From assembly GCA_001513145.1 (NCBI GenBank), contig LFSP01000038.1:1687-43276 (forward strand): a stretch of DNA of 41,590 bases. The letters run 5' to 3'. The stretch is from Clostridia bacterium DTU025 (GTDB taxonomy: Bacteria; Bacillota; DTU025). Within the stretch, counting starts at the first letter, position 1. The number at the start of each line of letters is the position of its first letter. Both the position numbers and the translations under genes were made by a program. The notes beneath the pieces were generated by a model, which was not told the origin of the DNA, ran no database searches, and saw only the letters and a list, made by a program, of their open reading frames with translations. Shown here in pieces: positions 8,954-26,156 of the stretch.

Positions 8954-9119
8954 GCGTTTGCCCTCCTTCTTGGGTTCAGTCTCGCGTATCGCGTATGCGG
9001 TGTGCTCGATGTGCGCGGCGTGCGCCGATGGAATGATGCGCTCGTGCGTTCCTGCATTCATGTGCTCCGGCGCCGCCGATCAGCCGTTGAGCTGCCCAGG
9101 CGCCTAGCCGATCCGGTGT

Positions 9120-9845
9120 TCAGCTGTTCAGCTGTTGGCGGCCGAAGCCAAGGTATGACCTCCTCACTTCGTCGCTGGCGGCAAGCTCGTCCGAGTCTCC
9201 CGACAGCACCACACAGCCGTTTTCCAAGATGTATGCCCTGTGAGACAGTGCCAGCGCCAGCCTGGCGTTCTGCTCGACTAAGAGTATGGTCACCCCCTCG
9301 CGATTGAGGTTGCCGATGATCTCGAATATCTGCTTGGTCACCAGCGGCGCGAGACCGAGTGACGGCTCATCGAGAAGGAGCATCTTCGGGTCGGCCATGA
9401 GCGCCCTGCCGATGGCCAGCATCTGCTGCTCACCGCCGCTGAGGGTGCCCGCCGGCTGCCTCTCGCGTTCCTTGAGGATTGGGAAGTGTTGGTATACGCG
9501 CTCGAAATCGGCAGGCACCTTGCGCCTGTCGCGCCGGGAGTAGGTGCCGATGAGCAGGTTCTCACGCACTGTGAGCTCAGGGAAGACCTGTCGGCCTTCG
9601 GGGGCCTGCACGATTCCCATTGCCACGATTCGCTCAGGCGGAAGCCAGTCAATTCGCTTTCCCATGAAGTGGATGGAGCCCGCCGAAGGCCGCACTATCC
9701 CTGATATCGCCCGCAGCGTGGTGGTCTTGCCGGCGCCGTTGGCCCCCAAGAGCGCCACGATCTCTCCCTCGCGCACCTCCAACGACACGCCTTCCAACGC
9801 TCTGACCAGGCCGTACGACACGTCGACTCTGTCGAGGACCAGCAC
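9120..9845 (-). CDS. livF: Branched-chain-type ABC transporter ATPase LivF
   Basis: Cytoplasmic ATPase of 241 aa, the usual LivF size. It has Walker A GANGAGKTT, signature LSGGEQQMLAIGRAL, Walker B MLLLDEPSLGLAP and the H-loop region, plus the LivF hallmark VAMGIVQAPEGRQVFPELTV. The start lies 2 bases beyond the LivG stop, so both ATPases are made together and pair on the LivH/LivM membrane core. Confidence 0.95.
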   Translation of the reverse strand: MLVLDRVDVSYGLVRALEGVSLEVREGEIVALLGANGAGKTTTLRAISGIVRPSAGSIHFMGKRIDWLPPERIVAMGIVQAPEGRQVFPELTVRENLLIGTYSRRDRRKVPADFERVYQHFPILKERERQPAGTLSGGEQQMLAIGRALMADPKMLLLDEPSLGLAPLVTKQIFEIIGNLNREGVTILLVEQNARLALALSHRAYILENGCVVLSGDSDELAASDEVRRSYLGFGRQQLNS

Positions 9846-9847
9846 GA

Positions 9848-10609
9848 CTACTCCCCCTCCCCCAGGTAGGCCTGGATCACCTGGGGATCCCGCTGCACCT
9901 CGGCAGGCGTTCCCTCGGCGATCTTGCTGCCGAAGTTCATCACGGTGATGCGGTCACATAGGCCCATCACGAAAGACATGTCGTGCTCCACCAGAAGCAC
10001 TGTGATGCCGTGGTCGTCCCTGATCTTCCTGATGACGCCGGAAAGCTCCACACGCTCCGTCGGGTTCATCCCGGCCACGGGCTCGTCTAGCAGCAGGAGG
10101 CTGGGCCGCAACACCAGGGCCCTGGCCAGCTCGATGAGCTTCTGCACCCCGTAAGGGAGGCCGTACGCCAGTCTCCAGGCATACTGAGAGATGCCCAGAA
10201 ACTCCAACATCTCGAGGGCCCGGCCGCGAAGCTCCTGTTCCTCCCTGACCGCCGCACGGGTCTTCAGGGCCGCCGACACGAAGTCGGTCTTGGACGCGGT
10301 GTGCAGGCCGATCATGACGTTGTCCAGCACCGTCTGGCCGCGGAACAGCTCGACGTTCTGAAACGTCCGTCCGATCCCCCTGGCCACCACCTCGTGGGGC
10401 TCGCAGTTCAGCTGCTGGCCATTGAAGAGGATGGTGCCCTCGTCCTGCTTGCGGAAGCGGGATATGGCGTTGAAGACGGTGCTCTTGCCCGCCCCGTTGG
10501 GGCCGATGAGGCCGTGGATGGCCCCTTCCTGCACGGAGAAGCTGAGATCGTTCACCGCCACCAGGCCGCCGAACCTCACGGTGACGCCGTCAAGCTGAAG
10601 CATGGCCAC
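9848..10609 (-). CDS. livG: Branched-chain-type ABC transporter ATPase LivG
   Basis: ATPase of 253 aa with Walker A GPNGAGKST, Walker B LLLLDEPVAGMNP, H-loop LLVEHDMSFV and the LivG-specific GIGRTFQNVELF segment. The usual signature motif is replaced by the LivG form LPYGVQKLIELARAL. The start overlaps the LivM stop by 20 bases; a GTG at 10607-10609 is placed about 10 bases after GGAGG, and an ATG two codons later is the alternative. Partner of LivF. Confidence 0.95.
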   Translation of the reverse strand: MAMLQLDGVTVRFGGLVAVNDLSFSVQEGAIHGLIGPNGAGKSTVFNAISRFRKQDEGTILFNGQQLNCEPHEVVARGIGRTFQNVELFRGQTVLDNVMIGLHTASKTDFVSAALKTRAAVREEQELRGRALEMLEFLGISQYAWRLAYGLPYGVQKLIELARALVLRPSLLLLDEPVAGMNPTERVELSGVIRKIRDDHGITVLLVEHDMSFVMGLCDRITVMNFGSKIAEGTPAEVQRDPQVIQAYLGEGE

Positions 10610-11582
10610 TCTTTTTCATCCTCCTTCTGGCCAGCGCGAACCTGATGATCCGCGGCAGGCTCACCAGTCCGTACGGCAGGAACAGCACCACAAGCACGAT
10701 GGACAGGCCCGCCAGCACCAGCGGAAGGTTCTTGACCCGGCTGAACAGGTGCGGAAGCAGCGTCATGAAGACCGCCCCCAGGATGGATCCCTCGATGCTC
10801 CCGAGGCCACCCACCACGATCGACGCCAGCAGGGTCATGCTAACGCTCAGGTTGAAGTCGAAGGGGCTCACGTACTTCACCAGGTGAGCGTAGAGCACCC
10901 CGGCGACGCCGGCGTAGAACGCGCTGATGGAGAAGGACGCGACCTTGTACTTGGCGAGGTTGACGCCCATGGCCTGGGCTGCCACCTCGCTGTCGCGCAC
11001 CGCCATCAGCGCGCGCCCGGGCCGGCTCCTGATGATGTTCATGGCCGCCTCGATCATCAGCCAGGCCACCGCCAGCGCCAGGAAGTAGAACTTCAGGTCG
11101 GTATCGAACCGAAATCCCAGGATCGACGCCGCTGGCACCTTCATGCCCTGGTAGCCGCCGGTGAGCTTCTCCCACACCGCCGACAGCTGGCTCACGGCCA
11201 CGCCGAACCCCAACGTACAGATGGCCAGGTAGTGCCCGCGAAGCCTCAGTGCCGGCACGCCCAGGGCCAGGCCCAGAACGGCCGCGAGCCCCGACGAGAG
11301 CACCAGGGAAGCCGCGAAGGGAACCCCGAACCTGCCGGTGAGTATGGCGGAGGCGTAGGCCGAAACCGCCATGAACCCCGCATGGCCTATGGATATCTGT
11401 CCGGTGAAGCCGGTGAGGATGTTCAGTCCGACGCAGGCGACTGAGTACACCATCAGCAGGCTGTAAATATAGACCACGTATGCCCTGTCGAGAGCCACCG
11501 TGACCAGCGGCAGCGCCACCAGGACGGCTGCCAGCGCCAGCCGCGAGCGCAGTGGAGAAAGCGTCGACTGTGTACGTTTCAC
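10590..11582 (-). CDS. livM: Branched-chain-type ABC transporter permease LivM
   Basis: Integral membrane protein of 330 aa with about nine hydrophobic segments. It has the LivM/LivH family loop (NILTGFTGQISIGHAGFMAV) and the EAA-like coupling region RSRPGRALMAVRDSEVAAQAMGV. Translation begins at a GTG six bases after the LivH stop, with an AAGGTG-type ribosome-binding site overlapping the LivH end. It forms the membrane pore with LivH. Confidence 0.94.
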   Translation of the reverse strand: MKRTQSTLSPLRSRLALAAVLVALPLVTVALDRAYVVYIYSLLMVYSVACVGLNILTGFTGQISIGHAGFMAVSAYASAILTGRFGVPFAASLVLSSGLAAVLGLALGVPALRLRGHYLAICTLGFGVAVSQLSAVWEKLTGGYQGMKVPAASILGFRFDTDLKFYFLALAVAWLMIEAAMNIIRSRPGRALMAVRDSEVAAQAMGVNLAKYKVASFSISAFYAGVAGVLYAHLVKYVSPFDFNLSVSMTLLASIVVGGLGSIEGSILGAVFMTLLPHLFSRVKNLPLVLAGLSIVLVVLFLPYGLVSLPRIIRFALARRRMKKSGHASA

Positions 11583-11588
11583 CGCAGC

Positions 11589-12458
11589 CTACACCTTCCT
11601 TCTCTGGACGGACCCCATGAGCCCGCTGGGCTTGATGAAGAGAACCACCATTATCAGGGCGAAGGCGAAGGTGCTCTTGAGTTGGGTCGAGATGTAGCCT
11701 GCCACCAGGTTCTCCAGCACTCCCAGCAGCAGCCCGCCCACCACGGCCCCGGGAAGACTGTTGAACCCGCCCAGCACCGCCGCGGTGAACGCCTTTATCT
11801 GCACCTCAGACATCATGGTGGGGCTGAGGAACGCCGTAGGCGCCACGAGGATGCCGGCCACGGCCCCCAGCACCGCGCTGATGCCCCAGGTCAGAGCGTA
11901 TACCTTCGGCACAGGCACGCCCATGAGCCGGGCGGCGCGGGCGTTCTGGCTGGTGGCCCTGATGGCCACGCCCGCCAGGGTAAACCGGAGCACCAGGTAA
12001 AGCACGAGCGCCATGAACACGGTAACCCCAAGCACCAGGAGGCTGTCGCGGGTGATGATCAGGTCGCCCACGAAGAACGGGCGCCCCGAGACCGCGCGCG
12101 GGAAGCTCACTGGATCATGCCCCCACACCCAACCCGCCGTGCCGGAAAGCACCATGAGCAGGCCCAGCGTCATGATCATCATGCTTATCAGAGGACCGTT
12201 CTGGATGGGCCGCAGGAAGATTCGCTCTACAACCACTCCCAACACGAAGGCGAAGGCCAGCGCCCCCAGGGCCGCCAGAGGGTAAGGCAGCTTCAGGCGG
12301 ACGAGCAAGGTGTAGGCGACGAACGTCGACACCATGGCCATCTCGCCGTGGGCGAAGTTGACTATATCCATGGTGCGGTATATCAGCACCAGGCCCAGGG
12401 CGGCCACTGCGTACAGGCAGCCCGCTGAAAGGCCGCTAACCACTTGCTGAGCGAACAT
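11589..12458 (-). CDS. livH: Branched-chain-type ABC transporter permease LivH
   Basis: Membrane permease of 289 aa from the ATG at 12456-12458, which has GGGAGGTGG just upstream; the longer frame reaches back over the upstream small gene and is not supported. Family marks are the N-terminal GLSAGCLYAVAALGLVLIYR, FAHGEMAMV, the coupling segment ATSQNARAARLMGVPV and the C-terminal FIKPSGLMG. It is first in the Liv block, 14 bases after the 73-aa unknown gene. Confidence 0.94.
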   Translation of the reverse strand: MFAQQVVSGLSAGCLYAVAALGLVLIYRTMDIVNFAHGEMAMVSTFVAYTLLVRLKLPYPLAALGALAFAFVLGVVVERIFLRPIQNGPLISMMIMTLGLLMVLSGTAGWVWGHDPVSFPRAVSGRPFFVGDLIITRDSLLVLGVTVFMALVLYLVLRFTLAGVAIRATSQNARAARLMGVPVPKVYALTWGISAVLGAVAGILVAPTAFLSPTMMSEVQIKAFTAAVLGGFNSLPGAVVGGLLLGVLENLVAGYISTQLKSTFAFALIMVVLFIKPSGLMGSVQRRKV

Positions 12459-12472
12459 CTGCCCACCTCCCC

Positions 12473-12694
12473 CTATTCCCTCTGCAGGAGCTCCAGCTCG
12501 CTCTGGATGAAGCACATCGCCTCGTCGATCTGGGAAAACCGCCGTTCATAGCCGCTCTGCACGTGCCTGACGACGATGCGCGTCTCGCCGGGGTCTGAGT
12601 CGGACTGCCCGCCGCCGGCGGCGATGGCTGGACCCTCGCGGCCGGGCCTTACGAACCTCAATATGAACGAGGCTATCACCGTCTCCCGAACCAT
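12473..12694 (-). CDS. Unknown 73-aa protein coupled to thiolase and LivH
   Basis: Small gene whose ATG (12692-12694) starts 2 bases past the thiolase stop, with GAGAGG embedded in the last thiolase codons, so it is translationally coupled. The 73-aa product begins MVRETVIASFILRFVRPG, has a Gly/Ser/Asp-rich middle and ends in an amphipathic acidic helix (DEAMCFIQSELELLQRE). No signal peptide, membrane segment or metal-binding Cys cluster is seen. I do not recognise the family. Its place between the CoA enzymes and the importer, with a good ribosome-binding site and tight spacing on both sides, argues that it is real and part of the pathway, perhaps as an accessory or regulatory subunit. Confidence 0.65.
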   Translation of the reverse strand: MVRETVIASFILRFVRPGREGPAIAAGGGQSDSDPGETRIVVRHVQSGYERRFSQIDEAMCFIQSELELLQRE

Positions 12695-12696
12695 GG

Positions 12697-13878
12697 CTAA
12701 CCTCTCTCCACGATCAGCGTGATCCCCATACCGCCTCCGCAGCAAAGTGTGGCCAGGCCCCGCCGCGCTCCGCGCCGCTTCATCTCGTAAAGCAGGGTCA
12801 CGAGTATCCTGGCTCCGCTGGCGCCGATGGGGTGCCCCAGGGCTATCGCGCCGCCGTTCACGTTGACTCGAGCGGGGTCCCACTGAAGTTCCCTGGAGAC
12901 TGCAAGCGCCTGCGCCGCGAACGCCTCGTTGGCCTCGATAAGGTCGATGTCGTCGAGACTCAGGCCGGCCCTGGCCAACGCCTTTCGGGTTGCTGGCACG
13001 GGACCGATGCCCATGATGTGCGGCTCCACTCCGGCCCAGGCATAGGAGGTGATCGCGGCCAATGGCTCGATCCCAAGCTCAGCGGCGCGCTCCTCCGCCA
13101 TGACCACCAGGGCCGCCGCCCCGTCGTTGATGCCGGACGAGTTGCCGGCGGTGACCGTGCCGCCCTCCTTGAAGGCAGGACGCAGCCGCGCCAGCGACTC
13201 CACTGTGGTGCCGGGCTTCGGGTGCTCGTCGACGACAAACATGACCGGCTCGCCCTTGCGCTGGGGAACGGCCATTGGAACGATCTCGTCAGCGAACTTG
13301 CCCGCAGCGACGGCGGCTGCCGCCTTAGCCTGGCTTTCAGCGGCGAAGGCGTCCTGCTCCTTTCGGCTGATGCCGTACTTCTCGGCCAGGTTTTCGGCGG
13401 TGATGCCCATGTGCGTGTCGCCGATGGCGCACCAGAGGCCGTCTCTGATCATGACGTCCGTTACCTGGCCGTGGCCCATCCTGTATCCGGTCCGGGCTTT
13501 GTCGAGGAGGTACGGGGCCATGCTCATGCTCTCGGTGCCTCCGGCTACCACGACGTCACAGTCTCCAATGGCGATATGCTGCGCGGCCATGGCCACGGTT
13601 CTCAGCCCCGACCCACAAACCATGTTGATGGTGGACGCCGGCGCCTCCACCGGGATCCCTGCCCTCAGCGCCGCCTGGCGCGCCGGGTTCTGGCCCTGAC
13701 CAGCCTGAAGTATGCAGCCGATCAGCACCTCATCGACGTCTGCCGGGCTTAGGCCGGCTCGCTCCACCGCCGCCTTGATGGCCACTGCGGCGAGGCTGGA
13801 TGCGCTAACGCCGGCCAGGGCGCCGCCGAAGGCGCCTATGGCGGTCCGTGCCGCCGACACTATCACAGCTCTTCTCAT
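12697..13878 (-). CDS. Acetyl-CoA acetyltransferase (thiolase)
   Basis: Thiolase of 393 aa, the standard length. The nucleophile Cys88 sits in INMVCGSGL, the catalytic His in [10 protein letters not shown] and the second Cys in TLCCGGGMG; all are intact. It either condenses two acetyl-CoA to acetoacetyl-CoA or, in a degradative setting, cleaves a 3-ketoacyl-CoA. With the neighbouring SDR, CoA-transferase and importer, the cleavage direction seems likelier, but this is inferred. It lies 51 bases after the KAS III-like gene. Confidence 0.95.
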
Positions 13879-13929: not shown

Positions 13930-14931
13930 TCACCACCTGAAGGCCACTCCAGCCTGGTTGTAGCCCACTCCGGAACCCACCAGCGCCACCAGCTGGCCCT
14001 CCTTGATCAGGCCCTTCTTCACGGCGTCGTCCAGGGCCATGGGGATGCAAGCGGAGCCGGTGTAGCCGAAGTCGTGCATGACCTGGTGGGCACGCTCCAG
14101 AGGAAGGCCGAGGTCGGCCATGACTATTGATATGGAGGTGCTGTTGACCTGCGTAAAGATGATGTGGTCGATCTCATCCAGGGTGAACCCGCCGCGCTCG
14201 GCCAGCATGCGCGTGACCTTCGGCCATCCCTGGTGGTTCACCTCAGGAGGGTACCTCTCCAAGAGCCTCACCTTGGTGCGGCCTGCCTGCACCGACTCGC
14301 AGGTGGCGGGCTCGTACGTGCCGCCGGAGTAGATGCCCCAGTGCTTGTGGTAGGCGCCGTCTGCGTTGAACGCGCACGAGATGAAGCCGGGCCTGTCAGC
14401 GGCAGTGAGCACGGCGGCTCCGGCGCCGTCTCCATAGAAGAAAGACGTAAGGTCGTTCTCGTCGGCGAGCTTACTCATCATGTAAGCCCCGATGACAAGG
14501 ACGTATTTCATCCATGGGTTAGCGGCGATGTAGCCGGAGGCGGCGGAGAAGGCCGTGGGGAACGACGCGCAGGCGCAGCCGATGTCGAAGGTTCCGGCGT
14601 TCTTGGCGCCCAGTTTGTGCTGAACCACTACGGACGTCGCCGGCGTTATGTAGTCCGGGCTGTCGGTTCCAAGGATGATCAGGTCGACCTGGTCGGGGGT
14701 GAGGCCCGCGGCCTCGAGGGCGGCCTGGGCTGCGCGGGTGGCCAGGTCAGAGGTGGTCCACTCGCGGGGAGCCCGGAAGCGTCGCCTGATGCCGGAGTTC
14801 TCCTCGAACTTGAAGACTATCTGGCCAAGACCGGGGCTGAGCCTATCCATACGCGCGGCGAACTCAGCGTTGGATAGCTCCTCCTCCGGCAAGTATCGTC
14901 CGGTGCCCACTATTCGCGCGTACCGCGCCAT
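13930..14931 (-). CDS. KAS III (FabH)-like protein with incomplete catalytic triad
   Basis: Protein of 333 aa with the FabH thiolase fold. The active-site Cys121 is present in DIGCACASF, matching the E. coli FabH site. Reading against E. coli FabH, the His of PHQAN is Thr here (FTQVNSTS) and the Asn of GNTS is Tyr (GYTG), so only Cys of the Cys-His-Asn triad remains. Decarboxylative malonyl condensation normally needs His and Asn, so this is probably not a fatty-acid initiation enzyme. It may transfer acyl groups or act with the thiolase on 3-ketoacyl substrates. It sits within the CoA-metabolism operon, 76 bases after the CoA-transferase. Confidence 0.85.
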   Translation of the reverse strand: MARYARIVGTGRYLPEEELSNAEFAARMDRLSPGLGQIVFKFEENSGIRRRFRAPREWTTSDLATRAAQAALEAAGLTPDQVDLIILGTDSPDYITPATSVVVQHKLGAKNAGTFDIGCACASFPTAFSAASGYIAANPWMKYVLVIGAYMMSKLADENDLTSFFYGDGAGAAVLTAADRPGFISCAFNADGAYHKHWGIYSGGTYEPATCESVQAGRTKVRLLERYPPEVNHQGWPKVTRMLAERGGFTLDEIDHIIFTQVNSTSISIVMADLGLPLERAHQVMHDFGYTGSACIPMALDDAVKKGLIKEGQLVALVGSGVGYNQAGVAFRW

Positions 14932-14949: not shown

Positions 14950-15003
14950 TCGGGGTGATCGGGTTTGTCGGGTCTGTCGGGTAAGTCGGGTGTGACGGGC
15001 AGA
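14950..15003. repeat. Six-unit 9-bp tandem repeat
   Basis: TCGGG recurs at exactly 9-bp steps (14950, 14959, 14968, 14977, 14986, then ACGGG at 14995), giving six units of form TCGGGTNTG in the spacer between the CoA-transferase and KAS III-like genes. No strong hairpin is apparent. Its function is unknown; slippage-prone copy number is possible. Confidence 0.75.
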
Positions 15004-15007
15004 ACAC

Positions 15008-16303
15008 TCAGAACACGTACTGCAGCCTTCGAGCTTCAGACCACAGCCAATCCCTGAAGTCGGGGTGGGCGATGGATATCAGCGCCTCAACCCGCTTTCG
15101 TATGTTCATCGACTTGAGCCGGGCAATGCCGTATTCTGTGACCACGTAGTCCACGTCGGCCCTGGGCACGGTGACCACCTGCCCGTCGAAGAAGGCAGGC
15201 ACTATGGTGGAGATGGTCCCATTCTTGGCGGTAGAGCGCAGGGCAAGGATGGACTTGCCGCCGGGCGACATCTGCGCCCCCATGCAGGTGTTGAGCGCGC
15301 CGCCGCCGCCGCTGTACTGCATGGTGCCTAGGGTTTCGGAGTTGGCCTGCCCGGTGAGGTCCACCTGCAGGGTGGTGTTGATGCTCACCATCTTGTGGTT
15401 GCGGCCGACGATCCACGGGTCGTTCACGACGTCGCCGCCGTGAAGCTCCACCCCGGGGTTGTCATCGATGAAGTCGTACAGCCTCCTGGTTCCCAGCACG
15501 AAGGTGCCGATCATCTTCTCCGGCCATAGGGTCTTGCACTTGCCCGTGATGACTCCGGCGTTGTACAGGTCCGCCATGCCGTCGGTGATCATCTCGGTGT
15601 GCACGCCCAGGTCATTCTTCTCCATGAGGCAGGCGGTGACGGCGTTGGGAATGCCGCCTATGCCCAGCTGAATGGTGGAGCCGTCCTCGATGAGGCTGGC
15701 AACGAGCCTGCCGATCTCCATCTCAACCTCGGTGGGCTGGATCGGAGGCACCTCCTTGAGGGGCACGGTGTTCTCCACAACGTGGTCCACCTGCGAGATG
15801 TGTATATGCGTGTCGCCGAGGGTTCTGGGGAGGTTCTCGTTGATCTCCAGCACAACTTGCTTTGCCGCCTTGAGCATCGCCTTCTCGTAGGTCAGGCTCA
15901 GCGAGAGCGACATGTAGCCATGCCTGTCAGGAGGGGTGGCGGTTCCCCAGTAGATGTCGGGGGGATCGTTCGCGGCCTTCTTCACGCCGCATTCGTTCAG
16001 GTGGTTTGGCATGAAGGTGACGGTGCCTCCAGGGTGCGCCCTGTAGGAGCACGGCCCGTAGTACCAGGCTTCGTTCAGGAAGTGGCCGCGCATCTCCGGC
16101 TTGAGAAAGTCGTAGTCCTCAAGGAGCAGACAGGACATGACGGTCACGTCTCTGAGCTCGTCCTTTCGGGACGCCAGGGCACGGAGTAAGCCTGGGGGCT
16201 GGGCGGCGGCCATGGCAGTGACGATGGACTGCCCCGACTTCACCTTGGAGACGGCCTCTTCGATGCTGATGAGCTTGCTCCGGTAGAGTTCCATCACGTT
16301 CAT
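15008..16303 (-). CDS. Acetyl-CoA hydrolase/transferase family CoA-transferase
   Basis: Class I CoA-transferase of 431 aa from the ATG at 16301-16303, which follows AAGGAGTG; the longer frame upstream is not family-like. It resembles 4-hydroxybutyrate or butyryl-CoA:acetate CoA-transferases. The likely catalytic glutamate is Glu237 in GVHTEMITDG, and the glycine loop QLGIGGIPNAV precedes it. It would move CoA from acetyl-CoA or another donor onto the acid imported by the Liv system. The exact acid cannot be read from sequence. Confidence 0.9.
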   Translation of the reverse strand: MNVMELYRSKLISIEEAVSKVKSGQSIVTAMAAAQPPGLLRALASRKDELRDVTVMSCLLLEDYDFLKPEMRGHFLNEAWYYGPCSYRAHPGGTVTFMPNHLNECGVKKAANDPPDIYWGTATPPDRHGYMSLSLSLTYEKAMLKAAKQVVLEINENLPRTLGDTHIHISQVDHVVENTVPLKEVPPIQPTEVEMEIGRLVASLIEDGSTIQLGIGGIPNAVTACLMEKNDLGVHTEMITDGMADLYNAGVITGKCKTLWPEKMIGTFVLGTRRLYDFIDDNPGVELHGGDVVNDPWIVGRNHKMVSINTTLQVDLTGQANSETLGTMQYSGGGGALNTCMGAQMSPGGKSILALRSTAKNGTISTIVPAFFDGQVVTVPRADVDYVVTEYGIARLKSMNIRKRVEALISIAHPDFRDWLWSEARRLQYVF

Positions 16304-16340
16304 CTGCGTCACTCCTTGTTCGACACCATATACGCGGACA

Positions 16341-16374
16341 GCAGACGGACACCAGACGGGCACCGGACGGATGC
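16341..16374. repeat. Short 11-bp imperfect tandem repeat
   Basis: GACGG recurs at 16344, 16355 and 16366 within units of form ACCAGACGGGC, three copies at exact 11-bp spacing, just upstream of the CoA-transferase ribosome-binding site. It is the second tandem repeat in a spacer of this operon. No function is assigned. Confidence 0.55.
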
Positions 16375-16411: not shown

Positions 16412-17152
16412 CTACAGGGCCAGCCCTCCGTCCACCTGCAGTACCGCGCCGTTCACAAAGGCCGCCTCGTCGGAAGCAAGGTAGAGATATGCGTAAGCTA
16501 TGTCGCGGGGCTCGCCCAGGCGGCCGAGGGGAGTCTTCTCCCTGATGTTCGTAAGGATCTTCTCGGGCACAGTGGACATCATGTCAGTCATGATGAACCC
16601 TGGAGCTACGGCGTTGACGGTGATCCCCTTACGTCCTAGCTCCTTAGCCCACACCTTAGTCATGCCGATGACACCGGCTTTGGTGGCCACGTAGTTCGTC
16701 TGCCCGAAGTTTCCGTAGATGCCGACAACGGACGAAGTGTTGATGATCCGCCCTGAACCCTTTGCGATCATCACCGGCGCCACAGCCTTGGTGCAGAGGT
16801 AGACGCCTTTGAGGTTTACGTTGATCACGCGGTCCCACTGATCGTCCGTCATCTTCACCAGCTGCGCGTCGGCGGTGATCCCGGCGTTGTTGACCAGCAC
16901 GTCGATGCGGCCGTAACGCTCAACCACCGCGTCCACCATGGCCTGCACGCTGGCTGCGTCGGTGACGTCGACGCGGAACGCGAGCGCCTCGCCTCCGCCT
17001 GCGTTGACGGAGGACGCGACCTCCTCAGCCGACTCCTGGTTGATATCGCAGACCATCACCTTGGCGCCTTCCTTGGCGAACAGCAGGGCAGCCTCCTTGC
17101 CCAGGCCGCGTCCGGCACCGGTGATCACTGCTACCTTACCGTCAAGTCGCAC
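16412..17152 (-). CDS. Short-chain dehydrogenase, FabG/PhaB-like 3-ketoacyl reductase
   Basis: Classical SDR of 246 aa with the NAD(P) motif TGAGRGLGKEA, the NNAG motif, the catalytic Ser in NTSSVVG and the Tyr-X3-Lys pair in NYVATKAG. Asp37-type residues after strand two (MVCDINQ) suggest NAD preference, which fits oxidation of a 3-hydroxyacyl-CoA. Translation begins with GTG (17150-17152) nine bases after GGGAGG. It is the first gene of the ten-gene run; four phased TGTAAC boxes lie about 95-130 bases upstream. Confidence 0.92.
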   Translation of the reverse strand: MRLDGKVAVITGAGRGLGKEAALLFAKEGAKVMVCDINQESAEEVASSVNAGGGEALAFRVDVTDAASVQAMVDAVVERYGRIDVLVNNAGITADAQLVKMTDDQWDRVINVNLKGVYLCTKAVAPVMIAKGSGRIINTSSVVGIYGNFGQTNYVATKAGVIGMTKVWAKELGRKGITVNAVAPGFIMTDMMSTVPEKILTNIREKTPLGRLGEPRDIAYAYLYLASDEAAFVNGAVLQVDGGLAL

Positions 17153-17245
17153 GCCTATTGGCCTCCCATCTCTTATGAGATCGTGTGCAATCGTGAGGAT
17201 CCCGGTCGAGGGTACAGGGATCTAGTCTGATGTTAGGGCATGGCA

Positions 17246-17284
17246 GTTACAGGGGAGTTACAGATGGGTTACAGGCGGGTTACA
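17246..17284 (-). promoter_or_regulatory. Four TGTAAC-N5 boxes, WalR/PhoP-like response-regulator site
   Basis: On the minus strand TGTAAC occurs four times at exactly 11-bp spacing (plus-strand GTTACA at 17246, 17257, 17268 and 17279). Each adjacent pair fits the published WalR consensus TGTWAH-N5-TGTWAH and, more generally, the phased direct repeats bound by OmpR/PhoB-family dimers. The boxes lie upstream of the dehydrogenase that starts the CoA/Liv operon and about 0.7 kb beyond the kinase gene of a two-component pair. No strong -35 is seen downstream, which would fit an activated promoter. The remaining 17153-17245 and 17285-17404 hold no gene. Confidence 0.6.
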
Positions 17285-17988: not shown

Positions 17989-19584
17989 TCACGCTGGTTC
18001 TTCACCGTCAGCAACATCGTTCTCAGCGAGATCCACGTCGAACCAGAAGGCCACTCCACCTTCGACGTTATCACACCCGCAAGCGTTCCCGTGGGCATCC
18101 TGTACAGCCTTGACTATGCTCAGGCCCAGGCCGGTGCCGCCGTGGCTTCGGGTGCGAGCCCTGTCAAGCTTGTAGAAGCTGCTCCATATCAGCTCCTTGC
18201 AGTCAGCGGGTATGTGCTCGCCGGTGTTGAACACCGATACCCGAGCCTTGTGGTCCAGCTTTTCCACTGAGATACGGATGGTACGCCGGTCGTCGATGTT
18301 GTTGATGGCGTTGGTGATGTAGTTGACCAGCACCTGTTCCATCATGTCGATGTCGGCAACTACGTCTAGGTGACTCTCCCCCTCCACCGACAGCTCGATG
18401 CGGTATTCGTCCAGGTGAAGGGAGTTCTTCTTCACGACGCGGTTGATAAGGCCCACCATATCGAAGCTGGACTTCAAAGGCTCAACATAGCCCAGCTCGA
18501 TCTGGCTGAGCTTCAGGAGCTGGCCCACCAGCCGGTTCATGCGGGCGGTCTCGTCCATGATGACATCGCAGTAGAAGGCCCTGTTCTCCTCATCCTCGTT
18601 GATGTTCAGCTTCAGCCCTTCGGCATAGCCCTGGATCAGCGCTATGGGAGTCTTCAGCTCGTGCGATACGTTCGCGATGAACTCCTTGCGCAGCTCGTCT
18701 ATCCTGCGCTCGCGCTGGATGTCCTCCTGAAGCCGAACGTTGGCCTCCCTAAGCTCCCCGATAGTAGCCTCTAGCTTCCGCGACATCTCGTTGATGCTGG
18801 AGCCCAGGGCGCCGATCTCGTCATCGGAGTCACCCTCGTACCGCTCGGAGAAGTCGAGGCCCGCCACCTTCTCGGCGATCACCTTCATGCGTTCCACCGG
18901 CCGGGTGAACCGCCCTGCGTACCAGTACGCCACCAGACTGCCGGCAACCGCAACCAAAGTGCCGCTAATAAGGAAGAACCTGTTCGCGGCCGAGGCGCTC
19001 TCCTGCACGGGAGCCACCGGCGTGCGCAACATCACGTAGCCCCCGTCAGAGAGCACCCCCAGGAGGCTGATGAACTCCAGCTTCAACCTGTCATCGAAGG
19101 TGGAGCCCATCATGATGTAGTCGGAGTCGGTCAGCTGGCCCTTGATCTGCCTCAGAGGTTCGGCAAAGAACGGCTCACTGACAACCGGGGCAGTTACGCT
19201 GACGACGAAGCCCTCTCCGGTGCCGCCGACGGCGCCGACGGCGCCGCCGCCGCCCCGCTGCGCCAGTGTGGCTATCCGGCCCAGCCTTTCAAGAGCCATC
19301 GTCGAGTAGCGCACCTGAAGATCCGCGTCCACGACAGTGATGGTCAAGCCGTCCTTGCGCTCTATGGTCTCCAGCGCGAGAGCCAGCGCCTCGACATCGC
19401 CCGCCTCGTAGAGCTGTCGGATCTGCCGGTAGCGGCTGACCAGCGACGCCGTCTTCACCCTGTGATAGTACCGCCCAAGCAGCTGCCAATTCAGCACCCA
19501 CGACAGCAGCACGAACAGTGCCACCACGCCGACGATGCCAACGAACAGCTTGCCTCGGATGGTCCGGATTCTGGGGAACCTCAC
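17989..19584 (-). CDS. Membrane sensor histidine kinase
   Basis: Kinase of 531 aa: transmembrane helix about 14-34, an extracytoplasmic sensor of about 170 residues, a second helix about 203-225, then HAMP, coiled linker, HisKA and HATPase domains. The phosphorylated His is in VSHELKTPIALIQGY. The ATP lid shows N-box NYITNAINN, a G1-type VFNTGEHIP without the usual DxGxG, and G2 GGTGLGLSIV. A Gly/Ala run (about residues 111-121) lies in the sensor domain. Start is 2 bases after the regulator stop, so the pair is co-made. Being downstream of the TolC genes, it probably senses envelope or drug stress. Confidence 0.93.
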   Translation of the reverse strand: MRFPRIRTIRGKLFVGIVGVVALFVLLSWVLNWQLLGRYYHRVKTASLVSRYRQIRQLYEAGDVEALALALETIERKDGLTITVVDADLQVRYSTMALERLGRIATLAQRGGGGAVGAVGGTGEGFVVSVTAPVVSEPFFAEPLRQIKGQLTDSDYIMMGSTFDDRLKLEFISLLGVLSDGGYVMLRTPVAPVQESASAANRFFLISGTLVAVAGSLVAYWYAGRFTRPVERMKVIAEKVAGLDFSERYEGDSDDEIGALGSSINEMSRKLEATIGELREANVRLQEDIQRERRIDELRKEFIANVSHELKTPIALIQGYAEGLKLNINEDEENRAFYCDVIMDETARMNRLVGQLLKLSQIELGYVEPLKSSFDMVGLINRVVKKNSLHLDEYRIELSVEGESHLDVVADIDMMEQVLVNYITNAINNIDDRRTIRISVEKLDHKARVSVFNTGEHIPADCKELIWSSFYKLDRARTRSHGGTGLGLSIVKAVQDAHGNACGCDNVEGGVAFWFDVDLAENDVADGEEPA

Positions 19585-19586
19585 TC

Positions 19587-20279
19587 CTAATCAGCCTCGA
19601 ATCTGTAGCCGATGCCGCGCACGGTCTGGATGAACTCAGCCGCCGGTCCCAGCTTGGATCGAAGTCTCTTCACGTGTGTATCGACTGTCCTCACGTCTCC
19701 GAAGTAGTCGTAGTCCCACACCGCGTTCAGGATCTGATCCCGCCCTAGAGCCTGCCCGGCGTTGTCGATGAAGTACGTGAGAAGCTCGTACTCCTTGGGG
19801 CTCAGGTCCACTTTCTCGCCGGCCACCGTCACCACGTGCTTTGCGTCGTCCACCTCCAGCACGCCGAAGCGGCGCACTCCCTTGCCGCCGCCGCGGACCC
19901 GGCGCAGCAGCGCCTTCGCCCTCGCTACGAGGATTGCCGGGCTGAACGGTTTGGTGACGTACTCATCCGCCCCGATGTCGAAGCCGAAAAGCTGGTCGTG
20001 CTCCTCGGCTCTGGCGGTCAGCATGATGATGGGCACCTGTGACCTCTTGCGGATCTCTCGACATACGACCCACCCATCCAGTCCCGGCATCATCACGTCA
20101 AGGATAACCAGGTCGATCTTGGGATCGGCAAGGAACATGTCCAGAGCCTGGCTTCCGTCAGCAGCCTCCAGTATGGTGAAGCCCTCTCGCCTGAAGAAGT
20201 CGGCAACGAGCCTCCTCATCCTGGCCTCGTCGTCCGCTATCAGCACTCTGGTCATGTCACCTGCCACTCCCTCCGTCAT
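19587..20279 (-). CDS. OmpR/PhoB-family response regulator
   Basis: Regulator of 222-230 aa. The receiver has the acidic pair in LIADDEARM, the phospho-acceptor Asp in LVILDVMMPGLDGW, Thr in IIMLTAR and Lys in YVTKPFSP. The C-terminal winged helix carries YDYFGDVRTVDTHVKRLRSK, whose recognition segment closely resembles that of WalR-type regulators. The ATG at 20277-20279 overlaps the TolC stop as ATGA; a second ATG at 20253-20255 begins the conserved domain directly (MTRVLIADD) and may be the true start. The WalR-like helix makes it the first candidate to bind the TGTAAC boxes at 17246-17284. Confidence 0.93.
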   Translation of the reverse strand: MTEGVAGDMTRVLIADDEARMRRLVADFFRREGFTILEAADGSQALDMFLADPKIDLVILDVMMPGLDGWVVCREIRKRSQVPIIMLTARAEEHDQLFGFDIGADEYVTKPFSPAILVARAKALLRRVRGGGKGVRRFGVLEVDDAKHVVTVAGEKVDLSPKEYELLTYFIDNAGQALGRDQILNAVWDYDYFGDVRTVDTHVKRLRSKLGPAAEFIQTVRGIGYRFEAD

Positions 20280-21385
20280 CTCGTGATCAAGCCCATGGCG
20301 TCACCGCCGGTGAGCGCGACGATCCTCAGGACCTGCAGGAACAGGTCGATCTTGGCTTGCACCGCCCTGAACTGCGCCTGCTCAGCCGAGCTCACCTGGC
20401 TATCCAGCTCGTACTGGAGCATCTCGCCGTGGTCGAACCTGATCCTCGCCACCTCTAGGTCGGCCGCCGCCAGCTCGGCTGAGATGGTCTGCATCTCCAG
20501 GCTCCTCATCAGCGACTCCAGCGTGGCCAGGGCGTTGTCGACCGAACTCACCAGTGACTTCTCAGCATCCGACAGCCTCGCCTGGGCATCACTGTCGGCC
20601 TTGGCGGCCTGATCCCGCTCGTTCTTGGTGGCTATCATCGGGTCCTTCAGCGCCTCATGCTTCCTGCGCGCGATGTCCGCCGCGGCGGCCGCCGAGAAGT
20701 ACGACGAGCTTGCCTTGCGCGCCGCCTCCAGGACCTCGTCCCTGGCGAACTCCACTTCGCCGGTGTAGAGCGAGCTCACGTCGGTGGTCAGCGCTATCGT
20801 GTCGGCAGGCTCCAACCCCGCGGCCTCGCAGAAGCTCTCCTTCACCTGCTTGATGTTGATCTCGGCCTTCACCAGAGCGTCGGTGGCCGATATGTAGGAG
20901 TTCTCCTGCTGCAGCACGGAGTCCCGGGTGGTGAGACCGGCTTCGTAGCGCAACCTCGTCACGCGGAGCCTTTCCTCGGCCACGTTCAGCGCCACGCGCT
21001 TAGCCGCAAGATCCCGCATGGCCTGGTCCAAGTCGACGTAAGCCTGAACCGCCTTAATCACCACGTTGTTAACGGTCTCCTGCAGTGCAAGCTTCCTGGT
21101 GTACGCCGTGTTCTCCAGTTCCTCTATGGTAAGGCGGGCCTGTTTCTCAGCCACAGCCCTCTGCCACTGCGTCTCGGCGTTCTCAGCGTTCTCCCTGGCA
21201 GTGGCCACCTCGTCGCTGTTGGCGACGTACGCGGCCACGTAATCTGCAAGACTGATCTCCAGGACTCCCTCGGCCTGGCCCGCAGCCACCGTGCGGCCGG
21301 GCGCCATCGTCACAGCCAACGCCACCGCCGCCAGCGCCAGCACCAATCTCATGCAGACTGCCTTGTTCAGATTCATTGATTTCAT
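20276..21385 (-). CDS. TolC-family-like coiled-coil protein lacking barrel hairpins
   Basis: Secreted protein of 369 aa from the ATG at 21383-21385, which follows a GGGGGG run. Signal peptide covers about residues 1-35 (ending near GRTVAAG). The rest is almost wholly alpha-helical heptad sequence in two repeats with the outer-membrane-efflux family marks (RYEAGLTTRDSVLQQENSY and RFDHGEMLQYELDSQ). The two beta-hairpin stretches that build the TolC membrane barrel are not visible where expected, although its neighbour has them. It may be a periplasmic or wall-spanning partner rather than a true outer-membrane channel. It overlaps the response regulator by 4 bases. Confidence 0.8.
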   Translation of the reverse strand: MKSMNLNKAVCMRLVLALAAVALAVTMAPGRTVAAGQAEGVLEISLADYVAAYVANSDEVATARENAENAETQWQRAVAEKQARLTIEELENTAYTRKLALQETVNNVVIKAVQAYVDLDQAMRDLAAKRVALNVAEERLRVTRLRYEAGLTTRDSVLQQENSYISATDALVKAEINIKQVKESFCEAAGLEPADTIALTTDVSSLYTGEVEFARDEVLEAARKASSSYFSAAAAADIARRKHEALKDPMIATKNERDQAAKADSDAQARLSDAEKSLVSSVDNALATLESLMRSLEMQTISAELAAADLEVARIRFDHGEMLQYELDSQVSSAEQAQFRAVQAKIDLFLQVLRIVALTGGDAMGLITR

Positions 21386-21409
21386 CTGATATCCCCCCAA
21401 ATCCTCTTG

Positions 21410-22909
21410 TCACATTCCACAGTAGTTCATCAGCGAATACCAGGCCTGCCAGACTCCGCCCCAGTTGGCCATGTAGTTGTTGCGGGCAGTGGTCAGGTTC
21501 AGCTGGGCCCTCTCAAGATCCACCATGAGCAGGTCTCCCTCGGCATACGCCTTAAGCGCCTCGTCGTAAGCCTTCTGCGCGTTCTCCAGCTGTGACCTCC
21601 ACTTCTCCGCCGACCAGAGGTCCAGGTTCAGCTGCTCGACGCTCCTCTGCACCTCCTCAACCACCGCCTTGCGCCGCGCCTCCACCGCCTGCCGCTGCCT
21701 CTCCACGGCGATCTCCGCCCGCCTGATGTTCAGGCCCCGCGACCCGTCCAGGCTCCAACTTGCGGACGCGCTCACCACTGGCTTGCTTCCGCCAGTCGAG
21801 AGCTGCACATCCACCGACACCGCAGGCAGCAGGCTTCTCGCCGCGTCAAGATCGCTCAGCGCGGAATCGAGTTCGAGATGGGCCTTTATCAGGTTCAGGT
21901 CGTTGTTCAGGGCCGCCTCCACCAGCGCCTCAAGCTCGGGCACCTCCATATCGAACTCCGGAAGGTCCGCGAAGGTGGCATTCGACATGTCGACGCCAGT
22001 TATCTCGGCAAGGTCTAACCTCATCCATCTCTCGTCGTTCTCCGCCCTCGCCAGGGCGATCTGGCAGTCCAGCACCTTCATGGCCGCCTGCTCCACCTCG
22101 GAATCTGCGGCTATCCCGGCCTCCCGCCGCCGCCTGGCTATCTCAAGGGCTACCTCCGCCAGGCGTAGCTCCTCCCGGGCCACAGCCGTTGCCTTCACCG
22201 ACTTGATGGCGTTGATGTACGCCTTCTGCGCCGCGAGCCTCGTCGAAGCCTCAGCGGCCCGATACTCCAGAACCGACATATTGGCCGCCTGCCGCGCCTG
22301 CGCGTTCGGCCCGAGGGCCCCGAGGAGCCTCTCTATCGTCCCAGCATCCCCCCGGACACCAGCGCCACCGTCGCCGCCGTCGTCACCGCCGCTGCCAGCG
22401 CCGGCCCCTGCCAGCCACGTCTTAGGCAGTGTATAGGAGATCTTCACCGACCCGGTCTCCCGGTCGAAGTCGTAACTCCCCGTCACGCTGATCCTTTCGG
22501 TAACGGGCACCCTCACCGACACCCGCTCCCCGTCGCTGCGGTCGCCAGAGGGCGCTCCGCCGCCAGAACCATCCTGGTTGCTTATCCCGCCCGATAGCGT
22601 GATGCTGGATGACCGCAGCGCCACGCTGAGCTTTTCCGATATTTCAGCCAGCTCCAGCCTGCTGGTGGCGTCGAGGCTTTTCCGCCAGGTCTCCACAGCC
22701 GCGTCCACAAACGAGTCGATGGTCCATAGGGTGCCCGACCCTGCGCCCGCCGCCAGCGTCTCCACATCCACCGTCCCCGCCCCGGCTGTCGGCGCAGCCG
22801 CAGCCGTGGCAGCCATAGCCGCCGTCGCCGTTTCCGCCGCAGCAGTGGCCGTCGTAGCCGCCAACACGACCGCCATCGCCACCAACACGAGTCCCCTGGC
22901 AACCCTCAT
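21410..22909 (-). CDS. TolC-family outer-membrane efflux protein
   Basis: Protein of 499 aa with an Ala-rich signal/low-complexity N-terminus (about 1-45), then two helical-hairpin repeats. Between helices of the first repeat lie strand-like stretches (RVSVRVPVTERISVTGSYDF, then SVKISYTLPK), and in the second repeat AVSVDVQLSTGG and VVSASASWSLDG, matching the two barrel hairpins of TolC. A Gly/Asp/Ala-rich loop of about 25 residues follows the first hairpin. The start overlaps the permease stop by 4 bases. It should complete a tripartite MacAB-type pump. Its presence argues for an outer membrane, although TolC-family members are reported in some monoderm genomes. Confidence 0.85.
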   Translation of the reverse strand: MRVARGLVLVAMAVVLAATTATAAAETATAAMAATAAAAPTAGAGTVDVETLAAGAGSGTLWTIDSFVDAAVETWRKSLDATSRLELAEISEKLSVALRSSSITLSGGISNQDGSGGGAPSGDRSDGERVSVRVPVTERISVTGSYDFDRETGSVKISYTLPKTWLAGAGAGSGGDDGGDGGAGVRGDAGTIERLLGALGPNAQARQAANMSVLEYRAAEASTRLAAQKAYINAIKSVKATAVAREELRLAEVALEIARRRREAGIAADSEVEQAAMKVLDCQIALARAENDERWMRLDLAEITGVDMSNATFADLPEFDMEVPELEALVEAALNNDLNLIKAHLELDSALSDLDAARSLLPAVSVDVQLSTGGSKPVVSASASWSLDGSRGLNIRRAEIAVERQRQAVEARRKAVVEEVQRSVEQLNLDLWSAEKWRSQLENAQKAYDEALKAYAEGDLLMVDLERAQLNLTTARNNYMANWGGVWQAWYSLMNYCGM

Positions 22910-24078
22910 TCGTACCTCAACCCCTCAATAGGATCTAGTTTGGCCGCCTTGTACGCGGGGTAGGCTCCGAAGAACATGCCCACCGACAGCGACAGTACGA
23001 AGCCCAGCACCACGGACTGCATATCCACTGCCGTTGGCCACCCGAAGATCCGGCTGACCACCGCGGACCCTCCGAATCCCACAGCCACCCCCAACAGGCC
23101 TCCCGTAAGGCTTATGGCGGCCGACTCCAGCAGGAACTGAACCAGTATCTCGCCTTCCTTGGCGCCCAGCGCCTTCCTTATGGCTATCTCCCTGATGCGC
23201 TCCGTCACCGACACCAGCATGATGTTCATGATCCCGATGCCGCCGACCACCAGTGACACGGCAGCGATGCCAGCAAGCAGCATCGTCATGGTGGCACTGA
23301 CGTTGGACACCACCTCCAGCATGTCCGCCTGGTTCGACACCCGGAATGCCCTCTCGTCGCCAGTGAGGCCAAGCAGCGTCGCGTACACCTGGTCGTACGC
23401 CATGCCCATCACCGACTCGTCCACCGCCTGCGCGACTATGCTGTTGAGGTTCTTGTTACCGGTGACCCTCTGCTGCATCGTGGTATAAGGCACATACATC
23501 ATGTTGTCGACGCTGGCAAACCCGCTGTCACCCTGGGCCTGCGCCACGCCTACCACCGTGAACCGCACCCGCTCGAAACGCACCCTCTGGCCTATCGGGT
23601 CAGCCTCCCCGAACAGCTCCTCGGCCAGGTCAGCCCCTAGCACGCAGTTCCACGTGTTCTGCTGGATGTCAGCCTCCGTAAGCCACCTGCCCCGAGCCAC
23701 CTTCAGGTTCCGCACCTCGGCGTAGTTCACCGACGTCCCCATCAGCGTAGTGGTCATGCCCACCGAGCCGTACGCCGCGGTCCCCGAAGTCTGCACCTGG
23801 GGCACCACCTGTCTGATGGTGCTGATGGCCTCGATATACGGCAGCACGTCGTTGTTTATCGGCGACCTCGACGTCCTGTAACCCGCGCTAACCGTGATCA
23901 GGTTCGACCCTAGCCGCTGGATCTGCGCCTCCGTCTGCCGCCTGGCGCCGGTGCCTATGGACACCACGATGATCACCGCCGACACGCCGATGATGACGCC
24001 CAGCGCTGTCAGGATAGAACGGAACGTGTTGCTGGTGATGCCTCCTAGGGCCAGCTTGAACGTGTCAGATAGCCTCAT
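22906..24078 (-). CDS. MacB-type ABC transporter permease
   Basis: Permease of 390 aa from the ATG at 24076-24078, overlapping the ATPase stop as ATGA. Topology is that of MacB/FtsX proteins: one N-terminal helix (about 19-41), a large extracytoplasmic MacB core domain (about 45-265), then three helices near the C-terminus. Family marks are LTALGVIIGVSAVI, GIGIMNIMLVSVTER and REIAIRKALGA. It works as a mechanotransmission pump with the ATPase, adaptor and TolC proteins encoded around it. The substrate is unknown: drugs, peptides and lipids all fit. Confidence 0.93.
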   Translation of the reverse strand: MRLSDTFKLALGGITSNTFRSILTALGVIIGVSAVIIVVSIGTGARRQTEAQIQRLGSNLITVSAGYRTSRSPINNDVLPYIEAISTIRQVVPQVQTSGTAAYGSVGMTTTLMGTSVNYAEVRNLKVARGRWLTEADIQQNTWNCVLGADLAEELFGEADPIGQRVRFERVRFTVVGVAQAQGDSGFASVDNMMYVPYTTMQQRVTGNKNLNSIVAQAVDESVMGMAYDQVYATLLGLTGDERAFRVSNQADMLEVVSNVSATMTMLLAGIAAVSLVVGGIGIMNIMLVSVTERIREIAIRKALGAKEGEILVQFLLESAAISLTGGLLGVAVGFGGSAVVSRIFGWPTAVDMQSVVLGFVLSLSVGMFFGAYPAYKAAKLDPIEGLRYE

Positions 24079-24788
24079 GACGCCGCACCCCCGGCCGCCT
24101 GCCGCCTGTCCTCGACGCACACGCCGTCCCTGAACGTCAGCACCCGCGGCGTGCACGCTGCCACTTCCGGCTCATGCGTCACCACGATCACCGTGATCCC
24201 ACGCCTGTTCATGTCCGTCAGGAGGTCCATGATCTCACGGCTGGCCGCAGTATCCAGGTTACCTGTGGGCTCGTCGGCCAGCACCAGCTTCGGCTCGCTC
24301 ACGATCGCCCTGGCAATCGCCACCCTCTGCTGCTGCCCGCCCGAGAGCTCGCTGGGCTTATGATGGGCCCTGTCCCCAACGCCCACCATCTCCAGCGCGC
24401 GCATCGCCGCCTCGCGCCGCTTCTTCGGCGGCACCCCAGCGTACACCATCGGCAGCTCCACGTTGCCCAACGCGTTCAGCTTCGGAAGCAGGTTGAACGA
24501 CTGGAACACGAACCCTATGGTCCTGTTCCTCACTTCCGCCAGCTCGTTGGAGCTCAGTCCCTGCACCGGCCTTCCGTGCAGCAGGTACTCGCCCGACGTC
24601 GGCCTGTCCAAACACCCCAGTATGTTCAGCAGCGTCGACTTGCCTGAGCCCGAGTGGCCCATTATCGCCAGGAACTCTCCCTCTTCCACCTGGAGACTGA
24701 CCCCTCGCAGCGCATGCACCTTCACCGCACCACGCCCCATGGAGTAGACCTTGGTCACATCTCGAAGCTGTATCATACTCACTGACAT
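24075..24788 (-). CDS. MacB-type ABC transporter ATPase (LolD-like)
   Basis: ATPase of about 237 aa with Walker A GHSGSGKST, signature LSGGQQQRVAIARAI, Walker B LVLADEPTGNLDT and an H-loop in VVTHEPEVAA, all characteristic of the MacB/LolD subfamily. ATG at 24786-24788 follows AAGG by seven bases; an upstream GTG is possible. It lies 13 bases after the adaptor stop and overlaps the permease start, giving a four-gene pump order adaptor-ATPase-permease-TolC. Confidence 0.94.
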   Translation of the reverse strand: MSVSMIQLRDVTKVYSMGRGAVKVHALRGVSLQVEEGEFLAIMGHSGSGKSTLLNILGCLDRPTSGEYLLHGRPVQGLSSNELAEVRNRTIGFVFQSFNLLPKLNALGNVELPMVYAGVPPKKRREAAMRALEMVGVGDRAHHKPSELSGGQQQRVAIARAIVSEPKLVLADEPTGNLDTAASREIMDLLTDMNRRGITVIVVTHEPEVAACTPRVLTFRDGVCVEDRRQAAGGAAS

Positions 24789-24801
24789 CACTCAGCCTTC
24801 G

Positions 24802-26043
24802 CTACCTTCCGAAGGTCGGACCGCCGCCCGGCCCTCCGCCAGTCATCGGCACGGCCGGTGCCGCTACGCCAGCCGCAGGCATTGACACGACTCCAGGCGA
24901 CGTGACCACTACCCGCTGCTGCGACTGCGACGTTCGGCCGCGCAGGTTGTTCAGGATGTTCTGCCACGAAGAGCCCCGGCTGGAGCTTGGAACGGCCCTT
25001 GGGTTCGCCACCGCCACCATCTCCCCAAGCGAGACCCCTTCCACGATCTGCGTGCCTGAGTCCGCCGATAGCCCCACCGTCACCGGCCTCATCTCCACCG
25101 TGCCGTCTGACTTGTATATCATCACGAAAGTTCTCCCACCCATGGACTGCAGTGCCGCATTGGGCACGATCAGCGCGTTCTCCACCCTGTTCGCGACTAT
25201 GCTCGCCTCCGCGCTCATGCCCGGCAGCACCCTGCCGAACGTGTCGTCAAGCCTGATGTCCACGTCGTATACCACCACGCCCTGCCTGGTCTGGCCTATC
25301 CTGCCGATGAACGACACCACGCCGGTGAACACCTGGTTGCCCAGCGCGTCGAAGGTCACCTCCGCAGGCTGGCCCACCTGGATCGTCCCGACATCGTACT
25401 CGTCCACCGTCACCCTGACCACCAGATCCGCTATCTCCGTGATCACCGCGGCAACGGCGCCCGACGCCATAGACTGCCCCGCTACAGCGTTGAGCGTGCT
25501 GACGACCCCTCCCACAGGGGCCCTGACCTCGCCCTCACCCTTACGTGTCACCAGCTTATCCAGCTTCAGCTGCGAGATCTCCAGCGCCTCCCGCGCCTGC
25601 GCCACATCTGACTCCGCCGACCTGAGCTCGGACGCCGTCGCAGCGCCCTTCTCATGCAGACCGCGGATCTTCGCCAGCTTCTCCGTGGCCGCAGCGAGGT
25701 TCTCCCGCTTCTGCCGCACGTCGGCCTCTGCCTGTTGCACGTCGGCCTCGTTGGGCTCCAGCCTCACCAGCACCTCCCCGGCACTCACCACGTCACCCTG
25801 GCCCACCAGAGTCTCCGCCACCACGCCGCCTTTGGGAGCGTACACGTTGGTGGTCTTCAGCGCCTGAACGTTCCCTGTGGCGTAGATGTCGGTGGAGAGC
25901 TGTCCCTGCCTTACCGGAATCGGAACATATGGGTTAACGGCTCCGCTCGATGCGGACTTCGACCTTGCGCGCCACACCACGCCGGCGCCGATGACTAAGA
26001 CCGCGATCAGGAGAAGGCCTACGGCCACTCGCTTTCGCCTCAT
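24802..26043 (-). CDS. Periplasmic adaptor (membrane fusion protein, MacA/HlyD-like)
   Basis: Adaptor of 413 aa with an N-terminal signal anchor (about residues 6-24), a split biotinyl-lipoyl domain around a coiled-coil hairpin (about 80-180, including ADVQQAEADVRQKRENLAAA), then beta-barrel and membrane-proximal domains (VANRVENALIVPNAALQ). A Gly/Pro-rich C-terminal tail is present. The ATG at 26041-26043 follows GGGGG; the extra upstream codons are not family-like. A perfect -35 hexamer TTGACA at 26096-26101 lies upstream without a convincing -10, so a separate promoter from the pgs genes is possible. It bridges the MacB pump to TolC. Confidence 0.92.
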   Translation of the reverse strand: MRRKRVAVGLLLIAVLVIGAGVVWRARSKSASSGAVNPYVPIPVRQGQLSTDIYATGNVQALKTTNVYAPKGGVVAETLVGQGDVVSAGEVLVRLEPNEADVQQAEADVRQKRENLAAATEKLAKIRGLHEKGAATASELRSAESDVAQAREALEISQLKLDKLVTRKGEGEVRAPVGGVVSTLNAVAGQSMASGAVAAVITEIADLVVRVTVDEYDVGTIQVGQPAEVTFDALGNQVFTGVVSFIGRIGQTRQGVVVYDVDIRLDDTFGRVLPGMSAEASIVANRVENALIVPNAALQSMGGRTFVMIYKSDGTVEMRPVTVGLSADSGTQIVEGVSLGEMVAVANPRAVPSSSRGSSWQNILNNLRGRTSQSQQRVVVTSPGVVSMPAAGVAAPAVPMTGGGPGGGPTFGR

Positions 26044-26156
26044 ACGAATAAACCCCCGTTCGTCTCTGTCTGCTATCAAGACTAACGGAGGCATGTGTCA
26101 AGTATGTGAACAAGGCATGAACGTTTATCGTTGTTGGAGACTGCGGCGGTTCTTGC

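Follow-up and report, generated by a model that had tools for sequence, protein, structure and literature searches.

Operators of SARP regulators are made of 11-bp direct repeats, and at the AfsR operator the 3' repeat lies 8 bp from the -10 element, where AfsR, instead of a -35 element, holds sigma region 4 (PMC10936776). The operator of PimR, a SARP-LAL regulator, has three heptamers separated by 4-nt spacers, of which a minimum of two is required (PMC5930380). Here we analyzed a stretch of 41,590 nucleotides from Clostridia bacterium DTU025 (the window), in which four phased TGTAAC boxes precede an operon for CoA metabolism and branched-chain-type (Liv) transport. Judging by the array sequence and how it is conserved, by the geometry of the promoter, and by the way in which regulator and array co-occur and adjoin each other, we consider it very probable that the array is the operator of a MalT-SARP regulator encoded at 36640–39960, which would activate the CoA/Liv operon. 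Searches of the open-licence literature turned up no account of MalT-SARP regulators, or of operators for them, in Bacillota.

The minus strand of the window from 17246 to 17284 reads TGTAACCCGCCTGTAACCCATCTGTAACTCCCCTGTAAC and contains four identical boxes at exact 11-bp steps: the distal box 1 (17279–17284), box 2 (17268–17273), box 3 (17257–17262) and the promoter-proximal box 4 (17246–17251), separated by the spacers CCGCC, CCATC and TCCCC. This corresponds to the earlier note's description of four TGTAAC motifs at strict 11-bp steps on the minus strand with varying spacers. Estimated from base composition, a 2.0-Mb genome should contain about 7e-10 such TGTAAC arrays, and about 2.5e-4 arrays with four copies of one hexamer, of whatever sequence, at 11-bp steps. 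A search of the window against Rfam found no RNA.

The array ends 94 nt upstream of the GTG start codon of a FabG-like SDR gene (16412–17152, minus strand, with the ribosome-binding site GGGAGG), the first gene of the controlled operon. It is followed on the same strand by genes for an acyl-CoA:acetate-type CoA-transferase (15008–16363), a KASIII-like condensing enzyme (13930–14931) and a thiolase (12697–13878), and by those for a branched-chain-type ABC importer consisting of LivH, LivM, LivG, LivF and a periplasmic binding protein (7748–12515). The operon therefore has nine clear genes; the earlier note had placed its start at 17152, which holds, and had counted ten genes, the tenth of which is not clear. 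The operon is predicted to act in organic-acid uptake and breakdown, the pathway substrate likewise being a prediction.

To compare the upstream regions of orthologous operons, as the earlier note had suggested, we searched related genomes with the CoA-transferase and then with the pattern GTWAC-N6 repeated three times. In G000, G003, G005, G006 and G007, the only place per genome with this pattern was in front of this operon. Widening the pattern to GYWAC plus a -10 element added G001, with two promoters, and G008, a member of another family. In total, three to four GYWAC-N6 boxes precede the SDR/CoA-transferase/KASIII/thiolase/Liv operon at eight promoters in seven genomes of the order; the additional promoter arises because the operon of G001 is split and the array stands before both halves. 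G002, G004 and the CoA operon of G010 were not judged for the array, as their contigs break off upstream of it. The boxes, their 11-bp step and their spacing from the -10 element are kept from genome to genome, including the position of box 4 in all eight promoters, and the flanks diverge. In the window, the predicted -10 element is TAACAT (17230–17235, minus strand), located 10 nt after box 4. In 8/8 arrays, a TANNNT element follows the last box at a distance of exactly 10 nt, and no other TANNNT offset in these arrays was common to even two of them. An alternative -10 element in the window, TAGATC, 21 nt after box 4, was dropped because the element at 10 nt is common to all eight promoters. 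No recognisable -35 element was found in these promoters and the last box stands at about its place, which is the geometry of an activator-dependent promoter. The TGTAAC boxes are thus supported as a conserved phased operator placed for control of the CoA/Liv operon, and conservation and promoter geometry both agree with the earlier note's proposal of a phased operator of the OmpR-type winged-helix kind.

The predicted regulator of the array is a protein of 1106 amino acids (36640–39960, minus strand), in which a MalT-like STAND ATPase/TPR sensor is followed by a C-terminal AfsR/SARP winged helix and BTAD domain. At its N-terminus, 410 residues align with E. coli MalT (8BOB, E 6.5e-60), and the NCBIfam MalT model aligns over residues 12–531 without the full model being passed (228.7 vs 537). 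The P-loop AGPGYGKS of the STAND ATPase is invariant in seven regulator proteins, and the TPR sensor region is present as in MalT. The C-terminus carries no LuxR-type helix-turn-helix; the SARP module (about residues 845–1106) occupies its place. This module contains a BTAD domain (Pfam, 2.7e-26) and matches AfsR in sequence, and its winged-helix segment FKVALNAMLNVLEP is strongly conserved. The AlphaFold model of the C-terminal 267 residues (pLDDT 93) has AfsR (8K60) and EmbR (2FF4) as its best solved matches, with a TM score of about 0.8, and these matches span both domains in the order winged helix, then BTAD.

In G006, G007, G001 and G008, the gene that immediately precedes the array encodes the regulator orthologue. 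In G006 and G007, this gene lies 5' of the array in the same direction and encodes a protein of 1084–1114 amino acids; in G006, whose orthologue is 61% identical to the window regulator, its stop codon falls inside the first box. The copy in G008 is damaged or incompletely assembled. Orthologues are also present in G002, G003 and G004. In the window, the regulator gene lies 19 kb from the array and a two-component system is the direct neighbour, as in G005. The array is present in G005 and the regulator was not found there, the contig ending about where the syntenic gene is expected. At the start of this contig (L192, G005:C36), the genes from DUF554 to the CoA operon follow the order seen in the window, so that the MalT-SARP gene not found in G005 is probably located past the end of the contig.

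Across the phylum, a blind scan of 399 Bacillota genomes with the DNA pattern found the array in 12 genomes, compared with 0 for the reversed pattern used as a control. In two of these genomes that lie outside the order, G255 (GC 32%) and G121 (GC 64%), the array adjoins a homologue of the regulator and an operon with KASIII and CoA-transferase genes; in G255, the regulator is flanked by two arrays, one preceding the KASIII operon and the other a divergent thiolase. The matches in G397, G204 and G327 have no such adjacent regulator and were taken as chance or unrelated. Conversely, a profile search with the regulator protein found it in 26 genomes. For a reverse test, we used 11 further loci that were found by the protein only and have an adjacent KASIII/CoA/Liv cluster; a locus counted if two or more boxes plus N9/10-TANNNT stood between the regulator gene and the operon. 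The motif GYWAC-N6-GYAAC-N9/10-TANNNT was present in the gap at 7/11 loci, against 0.001 expected from shuffles; the N9 spacing was allowed after inspection of the sequences, and with N10 only the count is 4/11. The spacing to TANNNT is N10, but N9 in one other family. The other four strict matches in these loci precede LivK-like or alpha/beta-hydrolase genes, which suggests a small regulon. The distant homologues in G179, G348 and G390b have degenerate boxes only, and in G382, G184, G322, G172, G156 and G193 no such operon was found beside the regulator gene. Separately, two-box GTAAC arrays stand before alpha/beta-hydrolase genes at L182 6454–6485 (G007:C136) and L253 11008, and hydrolases also occur near the regulator in G121, G348 and G390, suggesting that a hydrolase is part of the pathway.

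The earlier note had assigned the array to another protein of the window, a WalR/PhoB-like response regulator (RR; 19587–20279, minus strand), which would link an envelope sensor to acid uptake. The RR gene and that of its histidine kinase (17989–19584, minus strand) stand at the end of a HlyD/MacA-MacB-TolC efflux operon, the remainder of which encodes HlyD/MacA, an ABC ATPase, the MacB permease and two OEP proteins (20276–26094, minus strand). This operon adjoins the array operon in G000 and G005, boxes phased at 11 bp are bound by OmpR-family proteins, and the recognition segment YDYFGDVRTVD, which the earlier note had pointed out and which we confirmed, is identical in a Bacillus WalR-like RR. 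The published WalR box is reportedly TGTWAH-N5-TGTWAH, which agrees with the array. The term for this box occurs in PMC4168254 and PMC9210968. Nevertheless, we consider control of the array by the RR very unlikely. The RR scores 197.6 bits against the NCBIfam WalR/YycF model NF040534, below its cut-off of 340. A scan of the whole 2.0-Mb genome for TGTWAH-N5-TGTWAH, another check that the earlier note had proposed, returned a single place, the TGTAAC array before the CoA/Liv operon, instead of the many sites at cell-wall genes expected of a WalR regulon, and a WalR regulon was rejected on this ground. Furthermore, the RR and the array do not consistently occur together: no close RR orthologue (69–83%) was found in the array-bearing genomes G006 (93% complete; best match 51%) and G008 (97%; best match 49%), G009 and G011 have an orthologue (55%) together with CoA operons that are about 50% identical, rearranged and array-free, and no relative of the two-component system was seen beside the array in the distant genomes. 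Moreover, the promoter of the co-encoded efflux operon bears a different 11-bp array of the type GTTCAY-N5, GTTCAT-N5-GTTCAC-N5-TGACAC-N10-TAGTCT (26079–26122, minus strand), which is kept in G005 and G001 and has TTCAC-type counterparts upstream of the RR genes of G009, G010 and G011. We regard this array as a candidate autoregulatory operator of the RR. The mismatch between orthologues and TGTAAC arrays and the RR's own array leave the proposed control of the CoA/Liv operon by the RR unsupported. With respect to the efflux promoter, the longest-ORF start of the HlyD/MacA gene (24802–26094, minus strand) overlaps the 26079–26122 array, and its real start is probably the ATG at 26043 (MRRKR...). 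A four-box array (ATCAC, TTCAC, GTAAC, GTAAC, N10, TACGCT) at L180 5333–5386 (G010:C122) precedes the gene of a 659-aa secreted repeat-rich protein, a possible RR target in the family of G010.

Alternatively, both proteins could act in the lineage of the window, with the MalT-SARP regulator as the main activator and the RR adding a further input. In Streptomyces, sites are shared between AfsR and PhoP, and the RR and SARP operators considered here have an 11-bp step and an AC-ending box in common; the two-component system also adjoins the operon in G000 and G005. However, the boxes of these two genomes are not more RR-like than those of genomes lacking the RR, none of them being GTTCAC, and we judge such dual control to be very improbable. 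The array could also be a minisatellite without function, as the earlier note had cautioned, given that two spacers of the same operon (14959–14999 and 16335–16371) hold further short tandem repeats with 9/18-bp and 11-bp units. This can practically be dismissed: the boxes and their distance to the promoter are kept across genera, families and distant Bacillota, and the spacers between the boxes differ, in line with a weak Tandem Repeats Finder score (82% matches).

For the MalT-SARP regulator, we propose a mechanism in which the sensor takes up ATP and a ligand, probably the pathway substrate or its CoA thioester, and the ligand-switched MalT-like part then releases or assembles the SARP protomers on the array. 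The winged-helix protomers would bind next to one another, each on its own 11-bp TGTAAC repeat. Since the last box lies 10 nt before the -10 element, the SARP module would stand in for the missing -35 contact of sigma region 4, and RNA polymerase would be recruited to transcribe the SDR/CoA-transferase/KASIII/thiolase/Liv operon. That the regulator binds the array and that it activates rather than represses are, like the ligand and the pathway substrate, proposed by analogy. More broadly, MalT-SARP fusions are likely to form an uncharacterised class of ligand-gated catabolic activators that is widespread in Bacillota and whose operators follow a readable code of GYAAC-N6 repeats, N9/10 and TANNNT; in the window, the class would control a KASIII/CoA-transferase/Liv pathway that acts on an organic acid. 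A candidate operator is thereby assigned to an unstudied regulator class outside actinomycetes, and because the DNA pattern by itself was enough to locate regulator and operon in distant Bacillota, the regulon and the transported substrate can be approached by genome scans. The window also illustrates that assigning a response regulator to phased boxes because they are neighbours can mislead, as it holds two 11-bp arrays of different box types, each with its own better partner.

Compared with known systems, the array and its regulator appear to work like a SARP-operator pair, judging by the testable SARP features of sequence and fold. The regulator shares the winged-helix plus BTAD fold with AfsR and other Streptomyces SARPs (8K60, 8HVR; SARP-LAL PimR), which likewise use 11-bp direct repeats, possibly several, close upstream of the -10 element. 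The TGTAAC array consists of 11-bp direct repeats with the 3' repeat near the -10 element, and the gap is 8 nt if the repeat is counted as 8 contacted bp, following the convention of PMC10936776. In contrast to AfsR, where the SARP part is N-terminal before NOD/TPR, the SARP module of the window regulator is C-terminal behind STAND/TPR. The boxes also differ, TGTAAC (GYWAC) here versus CGGCAAG or the afs box in Streptomyces SARPs, as does the setting, a catabolic and transport operon in Bacillota rather than antibiotic genes in Actinomycetota. With E. coli MalT, the window regulator has the N-terminal STAND ATPase and sensor region in common. MalT has a LuxR-type helix-turn-helix at its C-terminus and recognises other boxes; in the window regulator, the SARP module replaces this part. 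Boxes of the WalR/PhoB type (TGTWAH-N5, pho) exhibit the same 11-bp phasing and a similar box-to-minus-10 geometry, and TGTAAC fits TGTWAH. Unlike in WalR/PhoB systems, however, no phospho-receiver partner travels with the TGTAAC array, and the local RR has its GTTCAY array. A MalT-SARP fusion over a catabolic operon in Bacillota is therefore a new variant on the SARP theme.
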